This document shows, piece by piece, positions 2,088 through 22,703 of a stretch of 36,422 bases of DNA (position 1 is the first letter of the stretch; each line of letters starts with the position of its first letter). Source of the DNA: a bacterium (lineage in GTDB: Bacteria; Patescibacteriota; Minisyncoccia; UBA6257; GWB1-50-10); NCBI GenBank assembly GCA_021812365.1, contig JAKANQ010000006.1:1-36422 (forward strand). The letters run 5' to 3'. The notes under the pieces are model-generated. The model had not been told where the DNA came from, did not search any database, and saw only the letters and a program-made list of their open reading frames with translations. The translations under genes were made by a program, and so were the position numbers.

Positions 2088-2258
2088 GTGAGGTTCTACC
2101 TTCCTTATATCCTAGTTAACAAAATGAGTAAATGCTTGTCGAAGACCGTTTTTTTTGGTACTATCTCTTTGCTAATATATGATTGTCTAATGGACGCGAA
2201 ACGCATGGTCGTTACTCGTTCGGAAATGCAAGAACGTTAATATATTTGTGCTCATTGC

Positions 2259-2329
2259 TGCGGGATCGTCTAATGGTAGGACAGCGGACTCTGAATCCGT
2301 CAATCTTGGTTCGAATCCAGGTCCCGCAG
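2259..2329 (+). tRNA. tRNA-Gln (anticodon CTG)
   Basis: Cloverleaf: acceptor TGCGGGA/TCCCGCA, anticodon arm GCGGA-CTCTGAA-TCCGT, T arm CTTGG-TTCGAAT-CCAGG; discriminator G; no encoded CCA. Confidence 0.9.
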
Positions 2330-2398
2330 CAATGAACGGAAATAACGTTCTCGCACTTCCTCTCTCGCTCGACCAAAGGACGACCGGACTCTGAATCC

Positions 2399-2418
2399 CT
2401 GCCTACCGGCAGGCAGGC
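2399..2418. repeat. Palindromic insert 1 (CTGCCTACCGGCAGGCAGGC)
   Basis: Self-complementary (CTGCCTACCGGCAGGCAG core); splits the anticodon-stem region of the tRNA-Gln copy. Confidence 0.75.
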
Positions 2419-2440
2419 GTCAATCTTGGTTCGAATCCAG

Positions 2441-2461
2441 CTTGCCCCGAAGAAAGCGGGG
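2441..2461. repeat. Palindromic insert 2 (CTTGCCCCGAAGAAAGCGGGG)
   Basis: CCCCG-aagaaag-CGGGG hairpin; splits the T-stem just before the 3' acceptor strand. Related palindrome at 22005-22025. Confidence 0.75.
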
Positions 2462-2581
2462 GTCCCGCAGCAAGTGAGCGAAGGCGAATGGCAGCGACTG
2501 AGCAAAAGCGACGACTGAGCGCGAACGAGGAAGTACTAAGCACGGCAGTGCATGTGTATTAGCGGCAAGTATAAATAAAAT

Positions 2582-3838: not shown

Positions 3839-4621
3839 ATGGAGTTACAGGAGTTAGTTGCTCGAGCACGCATCCTATTTAAAGGGGCGTCGAAACGCGT
3901 CCTTGTTTTTGAGTTGGTTAATGGAAAACGATCAGCAAAAGAAATCGCTCGCAAGAGTGGGCGTGGACTTTCTACTACATTGCACGATTTGCAGAAGATG
4001 AAGGACATGGAACTCCTTGCATACCGTAAAGATTCTTTGGGCCAAATAGTAAGAAAGTCAGATTCTGTTGTTTACGAAAAGCATCCAATTTTGAAACACT
4101 TATCAAGGTCTTATTTTAATGAACCCACATCATTACCACAAAAAAATAAAGCCACCAACAAACGAACCTTATCGATGCGTGCGGTAAAAACACCAACCGA
4201 GCAAGAAATTCTAGATATATGTCGTTCCGGCGAAGACCAACTATATGAATTCAAAAGTGCCAGAACTGATACTAAAGCAATCTCGAAAGAGGTCTGTGCC
4301 TTTGCTAACACACATATGGGTGGAATAATTTTCTATGGAATCGAGGACGATGGCTCAATTGGAAATGCTGACATGAAAAGGCAGATTTTTGACCAAAAAA
4401 TTCAAAACTCAATTCGTAATACAATTTCCCCATCTATTTCTGTAAAAATAATTGAGAAGGATGTTATTGGGTATAAAATCTTTCTAGTCGTTATTCCGCC
4501 ATGGAATAAAAAGGATGTTCATCAATATGAGGGACGAGTTTATTTGCGCCACGGAACAAACGTCTTTACTGCGAAACCAGAAGAGCTGAAACAATTACAT
4601 AAGGGGATTTTTATTATCTAA
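3839..4621 (+). CDS. wHTH + Schlafen AlbA_2 domain protein
   Basis: N-terminal KRSAKEIARKSGRGLSTTLHDLQKM wHTH; C-terminal ExxLYEFKSA...ISKEVCAFANTHMGGIIFYGIEDDGSI...YLRHGTNVFTAKPEEL, typical AlbA_2. Starts 2 nt after HTH member 5. Confidence 0.85.
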   Translation: MELQELVARARILFKGASKRVLVFELVNGKRSAKEIARKSGRGLSTTLHDLQKMKDMELLAYRKDSLGQIVRKSDSVVYEKHPILKHLSRSYFNEPTSLPQKNKATNKRTLSMRAVKTPTEQEILDICRSGEDQLYEFKSARTDTKAISKEVCAFANTHMGGIIFYGIEDDGSIGNADMKRQIFDQKIQNSIRNTISPSISVKIIEKDVIGYKIFLVVIPPWNKKDVHQYEGRVYLRHGTNVFTAKPEELKQLHKGIFII

Positions 4622-5009: not shown

Positions 5010-5036
5010 AAAAGATGCGTTAAAGCATCTTTTTAT
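5010..5036. terminator. Bidirectional terminator
   Basis: AAAAAGATGC-gttaaa-GCATCTTTTTATTTT between convergent genes. Confidence 0.8.
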
Positions 5037-5545
5037 TTTGAGAAAATCACGCCCAAATCGTAAACATCTACTTTCTTATCCCCGTGAAATCCATGAGAAT
5101 CAAGAGTTCCCTGCTTTTCGTGTATTTCAAAAATTAGTTTCAGATATTTACCGAGCACAAGTCGAGGAATTTTATACTTCCCTTCCTTTCCAAATTGGTC
5201 ATTATACCACTCAAACGGATCTTTTCCTCCCTTGCTTGCATTGCATTTCCTACACGCTAAGACTTGATTATCAATCGTATCTAAATCAATTTTGACACGT
5301 GGAATAATATGCTCCCATTCCAAATCACCTGTTGCATTACAATATGCACATTGTTTCTCATCCAAACATAGCATTTTATTTTCACGCAAAATTGAAGATG
5401 GATGCATCGCTCCATCTCGTAACTTGCAAAAAGAATGCATTACAAATGCATAATTTTTCCTATCATGCACCGCACTCTCCGCAATAAGCTTTGCATATTC
5501 CCAGTAGATTTGTTCTCTTATTGTTTTTACTATTGGCGGTGGCAT
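5033..5545 (-). CDS. HNH endonuclease
   Basis: CAYCNATGDLEWEHIIPRVK...LDTIDNQVLACRKCNASKGGKDPFEW: canonical HNH with CxxC pairs. Confidence 0.9.
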   Translation of the reverse strand: MPPPIVKTIREQIYWEYAKLIAESAVHDRKNYAFVMHSFCKLRDGAMHPSSILRENKMLCLDEKQCAYCNATGDLEWEHIIPRVKIDLDTIDNQVLACRKCNASKGGKDPFEWYNDQFGKEGKYKIPRLVLGKYLKLIFEIHEKQGTLDSHGFHGDKKVDVYDLGVIFSK

Positions 5546-21299: not shown

Positions 21300-21986
21300 T
21301 TAAAGCAAATCAAGATTTCCAGCTAACACTTCCTCCACTTTAGTCATTTTATTTCCCGTGCGATGGTCTTTCACCTGCTTATACGGGTGCAAAATATATG
21401 AGCGAATCTCATGGCCCCATTCGGGTTTCACGCGCGTTCGCAGATTGGCAATATCCTTTTCATGCTGCTCTTCCGCGAGATGCAGAAGTTTCGCCTTCAT
21501 CATATTCAGCGCTCGCTCCTTATTCGCTGCCTGGGAACGTTCCTCGCGTGATGCGGTCACCACGCCCGTCGGAATATGCACGATGCGAACCGCGGTCTCA
21601 ACCTTGTTCACATTCTGCCCTCCGGGACCTCCCGCGCGGCTGAAATCTATCTTTAGATCTTTCTCAGGAATCTGCACGTACCGCGCCTCCACTTCGGGAA
21701 GTTCGGGCAGAACCTCCACAAGCGCAAATGAAGTATGTCGCAGTTTTTTCGCATCATAAGGCGAGATGCGCACAAGCCGGTGAACTCCTGATTCACTCTT
21801 CAATCGTTCAAAAACCCCAGGACCTTTAAGGCCGAGGGTATCATCATTTATATACTGAAGTTTCCATTGCTTCTTTTCCGCGAACTTCGCGTACATCTTA
21901 AGAAGCATATTCGCCCAATCCTTGGCATCATCGCCGCCCGCACCCGCAAGCACTGAGATGGTTATCGCATTAGGATTAAAATTCAT
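21300..21986 (-). CDS. prfB: Class I peptide chain release factor, RF2-like, lacking domain 1
   Basis: [47 protein letters not shown]; 228 aa; starts where domain 2 normally begins. Confidence 0.85.
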
Positions 21987-21993
21987 ATCAATG

Positions 21994-22035
21994 GAGCCAA
22001 TGGGTCCCGCTTTCAGCGGGGCGACCCCTCACAAG
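21994..22035 (-). repeat. tRNA-Thr 3'-end duplicate plus palindrome
   Basis: GAGCCAATGG (21994-22003) repeats the tRNA-Thr 3' acceptor strand, next to palindrome TCCCGCTTTCAGCGGGGCGAC (22005-22025). Confidence 0.7.
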
Positions 22036-22059
22036 GTTGATCTAACGGATAGTAATATG

Positions 22060-22132
22060 AGCCAATGGTCGGATTTGAACCGACGACCCACGCTTTACGA
22101 AAGCGTTGCTCTACCAGCTGAGCTACATTGGC
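22060..22132 (-). tRNA. tRNA-Thr (anticodon CGT)
   Basis: Minus strand GCCAATG TA GCTC AGCTGGTAG AGC A ACGCT-TTCGTAA-AGCGT ... GTCGG-TTCAAAT-CCGAC CATTGGC T; no encoded CCA. Confidence 0.95.
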
Positions 22133-22224
22133 TTATAAGAAAACAAACAGTATTTGAGCAAAAACAAGCTATCATTCAATTCATGAATTTTGTACCCGCC
22201 GCCTGGTGGCGCTGGGCACTGTGC

Positions 22225-22251
22225 TCGCCTTCGCTCACTTGCTACATTGGC
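22225..22251 (-). repeat. Partial tRNA-Thr 5' end fused to a 19-nt repeat shared with the tRNA-Gln locus
   Basis: Minus strand GCCAATGTAGC (tRNA-Thr 5' end) runs into AGCAAGTGAGCGAAGGCGA, identical to plus-strand 2469-2487. Confidence 0.75.
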
Positions 22252-22304: not shown

Positions 22305-22311
22305 CTTCGAG

Positions 22312-22667
22312 AAGTAACCCATAAGCCGGATTCTGTATCACCAATCTTACGATTGATTAGTAATAATTCATCTGGACCCTCGATTGCTCTCGGGTTCTAG
22401 CGACTCTTTCTTGAATTGCTTCAAGAACACGGTCTTGCACTCGGGTAAGGATTTTGCCGTTTCACCTCCACTTTCTTGTCCCTATCGTGGAGTTGGACCA
22501 ACTACGTCGGGATTGGGTCCTCCTTAGCTTTCGCCTTGGACGTCACTGTTCGCACCTCTATCCTCGCGGACGACGGGCGTTACCCGCTACCTGCATTCGC
22601 GCTTGCGCGCGAATTGAGTGTCCGGACTTTCCTCTCTGCCGAAGCAGAGCTATTACTTGTGTTACTT
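22312..22667 (-). ncRNA. rnpB: RNase P RNA (class A)
   Basis: Minus strand GAGGAAAGTCCGGACACTC, later GAATCCGGCTTATGGGTTACTT; ends pair as P1 (AAGTAAC/GTTACTT). Confidence 0.93.
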
Positions 22668-22703
22668 CGAAAGAAATTATAGCACAAATTCGGAAAAAAG
22701 CAA

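Follow-up and report, generated by a model that had tools for sequence, protein, structure and literature searches.

Probable relics of mobile elements that insert into tRNA genes and leave a working copy in a Patescibacteria genome

Mobile ORFs of fungal mitochondria, described in atp6 of Allomyces and in atp6, atp9, cox2, and nad3 of Glomus, replace the C-terminal end of a gene and leave the native end behind (PMC3630166). These endonuclease elements enter an essential gene; the replacement end that they provide is functional and sometimes foreign, and the native end persists as a displaced remnant (PMC3630166). They are the closest precedent for the loci described here, which unlike them are bacterial, involve mostly tRNA genes, have 5' and/or 3' remnants, carry hairpins in the remnants, and mostly lack an ORF. 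Free-standing GIY-YIG and HNH homing endonucleases are also small endonuclease ORFs beside conserved target genes, but here a remnant and an intact target lie on either side of the ORF, and the occupied allele keeps an intact target (with cleavage putative). REP/REPIN and MITE-type repeats are likewise short, non-coding, hairpin-forming, dispersed, and without genes of their own; they differ from the elements described here, in which the outer arms match each target gene and the gene is regenerated. Mobilization of the REP/RAYT kind was rejected because the Y1 (RAYT-type) transposase, PF01797, is absent in G000-G003, the four congeners among the 99 genomes (98 relatives) of our survey set. Rickettsia palindromic elements are small palindromes inserted within functional genes of reduced genomes; palindromes and genomes are similar here, but the palindromes sit in displaced remnants. 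Insertions resembling group I introns in tRNA genes are seen in tRNA-Thr of relatives: at L128 (G007) the anticodon arm/loop is split by an intron-like insert of ∼200 nt, and L079 (G076) is similar. Unlike in these cases, tRNAs in the window are uninterrupted and the inserts lie outside the functional gene. A search of the literature on tRNA remnants, homing endonucleases, and palindromes at tRNA genes in Patescibacteria/CPR, with subscription journals mostly outside its coverage, yielded no such description. To our knowledge, invasion of essential genes by elements that leave a working copy has been described only in fungal mitochondria.

The window, the whole stretch of 36,422 nt analyzed, is the 36-kb contig C5 of a genome of 626,283 bases in 25 contigs (98% complete) from a Patescibacteria (Parcubacteria-type) organism with a very small genome (626 kb). 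Many contigs (C2, C3, C4, C6, C8, C14, and C15) end at a distance of ∼100 nt from a tRNA gene, which would be expected of loci that vary in the population or are repeated. The window has two tRNA genes identified by ARAGORN, tRNA-Gln(CTG) and tRNA-Thr(CGT), and each is located within remains of an older copy of itself. Features of the tRNA-Thr locus, read along the minus strand, are as follows.

22241-22251, minus strand: 5' end left from the older tRNA-Thr (5' remnant), GCCAATGTAGC, immediately 3' of the promoter region (gene start at the same position in G003 and G002)
22225-22243, minus strand: 19-nt sequence AGCAAGTGAGCGAAGGCGA, adjoining the 5' remnant and common with 2469-2487 (repeat search, I12)
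22133-22240, minus strand: upstream flank of the insert, 108 nt, not in sister species (comparison with relatives)
22059-22132, minus strand: intact tRNA-Thr(CGT), within remains of the older tRNA-Thr (ARAGORN; Rfam RF00005, 71.5 bits)
22003-22059, minus strand: downstream flank of the insert, 57 nt, with a hairpin at its end (sequence; comparison with relatives)
22006-22022, minus strand: hairpin GCCCCGCTGAAAGCGGG, directly adjoining the acceptor remnant (exact-match search)
21993-22002, minus strand: 3' end left from the older tRNA-Thr (3' remnant), CATTGGCTCC, immediately ahead of prfB, at the place of the gene end in G003 (comparison with relatives)

The same-genus sister G003 represents the empty site, in which the promoter region is followed by a single intact tRNA-Thr, the bases CC, and prfB; in G002, tRNA-Thr is likewise directly 3' of the promoter. 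In the window, the order is promoter, the first 11 nt of tRNA-Thr, 108 nt, intact tRNA-Thr, 57 nt, the last 10 nt, and prfB. Relative to G003, both ends of the old tRNA-Thr thus keep their ancestral places and the functional copy is between them, flanked on either side by unrelated DNA. A tRNA end of 9 to 11 nt could by itself be a chance match, but the comparison with relatives shows that these are not. A sequence-only reading of this stretch had reported a second tRNA-Thr 3' end about 60 nt past the tRNA; it is there, at 57 nt and with hairpin GCCCCGCTGAAAGCGGG between, and the 5' remnant is 108 nt upstream. The intact tRNA in the nested loci sits inside the remains of an older copy and is not a gene to which stray tRNA ends have been added. 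Upstream of tRNA-Thr is an RNase P RNA gene (class A, rnpB; 22307-22668, minus strand) that the default Rfam scan misses because its score of 99.6 bits is just under the gathering score of 100. The adjacent prfB (RF2; 21300-21986, minus strand) is without the first part of the N-terminal domain, with a PCRF profile match that begins at profile position 100. Because orthologs beside tRNA-Thr in G003 (L104) and in L105 have an apparent start at approximately the same point, the short prfB looks like a feature of the lineage.

The tRNA-Gln locus is nested in the same way, with features on the plus strand.

2180-2193, plus strand: 5' end left from the older tRNA-Gln (5' remnant), TGATTGTCTAATGG, decayed, with an orthologous remnant in G003 (comparison with G003)
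2222-2265, plus strand: left inverted-repeat arm around the intact tRNA-Gln (repeat I6, in which 2243-2265 pairs with 2322-2344; pairing of 2222-2239 with 2343-2360 was read from the sequence)
2259-2330, plus strand: intact tRNA-Gln(CTG), within remains of the older tRNA-Gln (ARAGORN)
2322-2360, plus strand: right inverted-repeat arm around the intact tRNA-Gln (repeat search and reading of the sequence)
∼2376-2470, plus strand: 3' remnant of the older tRNA-Gln, from the anticodon arm to the 3' end (sequence; comparison with own flanks)
2398-2417, plus strand: 20-nt palindrome CCTGCCTACCGGCAGGCAGG inserted in the 3' remnant (genome search)
2441-2461, plus strand: CTTGCCCCGAAGAAAGCGGGG, a 21-nt hairpin insert in the 3' remnant, located where T-stem and acceptor meet (sequence; exact-match search)
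2469-2487, plus strand: 19-nt sequence common with the Thr locus, adjoining the 3' remnant (repeat search; exact-match search)

The intact tRNA-Gln is therefore the middle of an inverted repeat, and the long 3' remnant is interrupted by two inserts, the palindrome and the hairpin. The same nested layout, without the palindromes, is present at a second tRNA-Gln of this genome (C9:49149) and at one in G001. At the orthologous locus in G003, the upstream region is the same; next come a 5' remnant, which has its palindrome at the D-arm, and an intact tRNA-Gln identical to that in the window. Downstream of the locus in the window are genes for a Schlafen/AlbA_2 protein (3839-4621, plus strand) and an HNH endonuclease (5033-5545, minus strand).

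The two loci have a hairpin and a 19-nt sequence in common, as had been claimed from the letters alone. The hairpin motif GCCCCGNNGAAAGCGGG occurs exactly at two places in the 626-kb genome, both at these loci, against a chance expectation of ∼0.001 for a 15-base pattern (by arithmetic); it is at the T-stem/acceptor junction in the Gln copy and directly against the acceptor remnant in the Thr copy. Repeat I12 bears out the run of the tRNA-Thr 5' end into 19 nt identical to 2469-2487, and within it AGTGAGCGAAGGCGA has exact matches in the genome at 2473 and 22225 only, both adjoining a tRNA remnant. With two exact sites each for the hairpin and the 19-mer motif, the observation is real and not due to chance. 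Across the 98 relatives there are five exact copies of GCCCCGNNGAAAGCGGG, none beside a tRNA, and at least two (L401 and L402) resemble ordinary terminator hairpins. We therefore rejected the hairpin motif as a dispersed family. The proposal of a dispersed family of small elements that acquire or target tRNA ends holds as a general statement, on genome-wide and order-wide counts, but its marker was wrong: what recurs is the layout, with an intact gene, a displaced remnant, and hairpins at matching tRNA junctions, along with two other families of cores and GIY-YIG ORFs in equivalent places, not the GCCCCGnnGAAAGCGGG hairpin and the 19-mer. The palindrome seen at 2398-2417, CTGCCTNCCGGCAGGCAG, is found at five places in the genome, and at each a tRNA is no more than 350 nt away; such zones make up 4.2% of the genome. 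A hairpin, CCCCGCTGAAAGCGGGG, is also present in G060 (L403, 1501-1517), directly before the apparent start of a GIY-YIG ORF.

Remnants are widespread among tRNA genes of the genome. For each of 43 tRNA matches (one of them a partial gene where a contig ends), the comparison was with the 600-nt flanks of the same gene, other tRNA genes being masked, and flanks of other tRNAs served as the control. A copy of own sequence of at least 11 nt is nearby in 18 of the 43, against 2.5 expected, and a copy of at least 14 nt in 12, against 0.17 expected. Some of these loci have coding sequences. At tRNA-Tyr and tRNA-Ser(GCT), a GIY-YIG ORF separates the 5' remnant from the intact tRNA; at tRNA-Cys, an HNH ORF comes after the tRNA. 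The other tRNA-Gln locus in G003 and the tRNA-Gln loci of G004, G022, and G045 likewise have a GIY-YIG ORF that lies between 5' remnant and intact gene. Of the best 30 GIY-YIG loci, 12 are within 150 nt of a tRNA, and seven of these also have a remnant of at least 11 nt; about half of the 30 are without a tRNA nearby, indicating that many such ORFs are elsewhere or are of other kinds. The ORF list has no endonuclease ORF between remnants and tRNA at the Thr and Gln loci of the window. Relative to a homing element with gene regeneration, an intact target with a displaced remnant at the ancestral position is present at both loci when compared with G003, whereas an endonuclease ORF is found at tRNA-Tyr and tRNA-Ser of this genome and at tRNA-Gln of relatives and not at the window loci.

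Twelve tRNAs of the genome have a downstream element that belongs to one of two uncatalogued families of ∼100-nt hairpins, alpha and beta, and all 12 alpha and beta matches in the genome are directly 3' of a tRNA. The order is tRNA, terminator, the T-loop and T-stem strand of that tRNA copied in inverted orientation, a core of ∼80 nt, and a direct copy of the tRNA 3' end, often with a second terminator at the far end. One arm of the element is hence complementary to the T-arm of its own tRNA and a displaced tRNA 3' end is located beyond. Searches of the cores against Rfam yielded no match, with only tRNA and RNase P at meaningful scores, and the Thr and Gln loci of the window do not match alpha/beta core models R1 or R2. 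The beta model is found in 53 of the 99 genomes with up to 15 copies each, and the alpha model in 30 with up to 20 copies, some in tandem. Named genomes with beta are almost all Parcubacteria-type Patescibacteria. A tRNA was detected shortly upstream on the same strand in 25 of the best 30 beta loci; the beta loci L097 and L098 also follow a tRNA, the last bases of which overlap the model match, and at L079 the element comes after the 3' end of a tRNA-Thr that contains an intron. In named GTDB genomes, 44 of 80 matches to the beta-core pattern are at most 250 nt downstream of a tRNA, compared with 2.3% of random positions.

Arms of beta elements correspond to the gene at which each is located. 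Across 69 unique insertions, which cover 18 tRNA isotypes, the left arm matches its own tRNA over a mean of 10.0 nt and other tRNAs over 5.3 nt; the summed match of 693 exceeds the maximum of 421 among 2000 permutations. On the right side, an exact 12-mer of the own T-stem and acceptor is present in 51 of 69 insertions and in none when other tRNAs are used. The same layout is found for several beta copies away from tRNAs, at fusA, typA, rplK, rnhA, and mnmA, and probably at rpmG (L33). At the gene encoding EF-G, the intact product is 704 aa and the displaced copy is 77/78 identical, with a second fusA case also observed; TypA is 603 aa (copy 38/51), the RNase HI copy is 71/74, and L11 and MnmA have the same layout. 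Because the layout recurs at protein genes, the beta family prefers conserved genes and not tRNAs as such. Other beta copies are intergenic repeats of a different subtype that are not at tRNAs. Loci such as L137, L146, L164, L185, and L208, in Taylorbacteria/Kaiserbacteria-type genomes, have intergenic beta flanked by other hairpins.

Occupancy varies among congeners. At tRNA-Arg-TCG, alpha is present in the window genome and G002, and beta in G001. At tRNA-Asp-GTC, alpha is present in the window genome and G001, and beta in G002 and G003. Two sites are empty in the window genome: tRNA-Gly-CCC, which has beta in G001 and alpha in G003, and tRNA-Ala-CGC, which has beta in G002.

Hairpins that are conserved and lie downstream of tRNAs could be functional RNAs of tRNA transcription units (terminators, or processing or regulatory RNAs), with tRNA-like ends kept because they pair with the tRNA. 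Covariation in the beta core is indeed strong, with 91% of cells paired versus 33–64% when slid and double changes in 21 of 29 pairs, and both families are on the same strand as the tRNA with an arm complementary to its T-arm. If RNA were the selected molecule, however, G:U pairs should far exceed A:C pairs. The ratio of G:U to A:C is 24:14 in core pairs and 192:15 in tRNA stems of the same genomes (p = 7e-6, an optimistic value because related sequences are counted as independent), and the near balance in the core favors a constraint or a copying process at the level of DNA. RNA-level constraint on the beta core is thus not favored, even though the fold covaries strongly. Moreover, occupancy and identity of the element switch between congeners at the same tRNA, beta is antisense at the 5' ends of fusA, typA, rplK, and rnhA, and the nested Gln and Thr layouts are left unexplained, so that we consider a function as RNA unlikely.

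That tRNA genes were simply duplicated in tandem and then decayed, and that small palindromes came to lie in the dead copies, is rather improbable. Genes for tRNAs do duplicate and the palindromes sit in remnants. But conserved alpha/beta cores and endonuclease ORFs are present at the junctions, the arms are inverted copies, and protein genes share the layout. Furthermore, the remnant of tRNA-Gln in G004 begins TGCCGGA whereas the intact gene begins TGCGGGA, and in G050, remnants have TGCCGGG..CCCGGCA against TGCGGGA..TCCCGCA in the intact gene. Because the acceptor stems differ, the intact tRNA-Gln in these genomes is not a local duplicate of the broken copy.

A displaced tRNA 3' end beside an intact tRNA is the classic trace of islands and phages that integrate at tRNA genes, and the loci could be scars of such events (attL/attR of a tyrosine recombinase). 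We regard this as very improbable. Unlike elements that use a tRNA attB site, those described here are only ∼100 nt, have an inverted arm derived from the target, and also hit protein genes. Inserts of 100-300 nt, as well as those of 57 and 108 nt in the window, are without an integrase; 5' remnants and breakpoints in the D-arm and T-loop are present; and the same core has different ends at different isotypes. The beta core also had no match in 2.9 million viral contigs. Artifacts of assembly or binning at repeated tRNA sequences are hardly credible. Several contigs of this genome do end ∼100 nt past a tRNA, but many genomes obtained independently in different studies have the same layouts, and breakpoints are orthologous in congeners.

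We suggest instead that the Thr and Gln loci are probably relics of mobile elements that enter tRNA genes and rebuild the gene they break, a reading made throughout from genome assemblies. Ends of tRNAs at ancestral positions, with an intact copy of the same isotype between or beside them, recur at many tRNA genes, and several protein genes that are conserved have the equivalent arrangement; congeners differ in occupancy; and the elements have conserved cores and target-matched arms. In the proposed mechanism, a conserved site in the gene would be cut by an endonuclease, which at loci with an ORF would be GIY-YIG or HNH, with double-strand breaks predicted in the T-loop for alpha/beta and, for the GIY-YIG type, in the D-arm or anticodon arm. 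Repair would install the element with a functional replacement of the gene or its distal part, the host would survive, and the displaced remnant would stay beyond the inserted element. Where an ORF exists, the mobilizing nuclease is plausibly the GIY-YIG or HNH protein. Alpha and beta would be non-coding forms with the T-loop as target, and the Thr and Gln loci would be ORF-less and partly decayed cases. The left arm may match its target because repair synthesis copies the broken end or because selection keeps a DNA hairpin closed. A guide role for this arm in an RNA-guided (IscB/TnpB-like) system was set aside, since the regenerated gene would stay a target. There is no coding relative at the same breakpoint for the Thr locus. 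Being without an ORF and an alpha/beta core, the window loci connect to the family through their layout, breakpoints, and orthology, and we file them as relics that work like homing elements and not as members.

More tentatively, alpha and beta could represent a new class of non-coding DNA hairpins that invade conserved genes (tRNAs of every kind, EF-G, TypA, L11, and RNase HI), rebuild them, and write a target-specific inverted arm at each site, with their GIY-YIG/HNH relatives acting as natural cut-and-rescue elements that bring a functional foreign tRNA. Essential genes are supposedly safe from insertion, yet these elements appear to specialize in essential, highly conserved genes and to be tolerated in very small genomes by leaving a working copy. 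They would in this respect resemble engineered cleave-and-rescue drives and would account for peculiarities of Patescibacteria assemblies, namely odd fragments of tRNAs, palindromes, and contigs that often break at tRNA genes. How the arm comes to match its target is a clear question of mechanism, and one that is testable.

Different kinds of insertion are also found stacked at single loci. At L307 (G001:C15), tRNA-Gln is followed by a beta-like element and then by a decayed 3' remnant, so that two kinds of insertion are combined. The stack at L248 (G015) consists of tRNA-Gln, a GIY-YIG ORF, a 3' remnant whose T/acceptor junction carries a hairpin, and a beta-like element that bears the CCTGCCTGCCGGTAGGCAGG palindrome.
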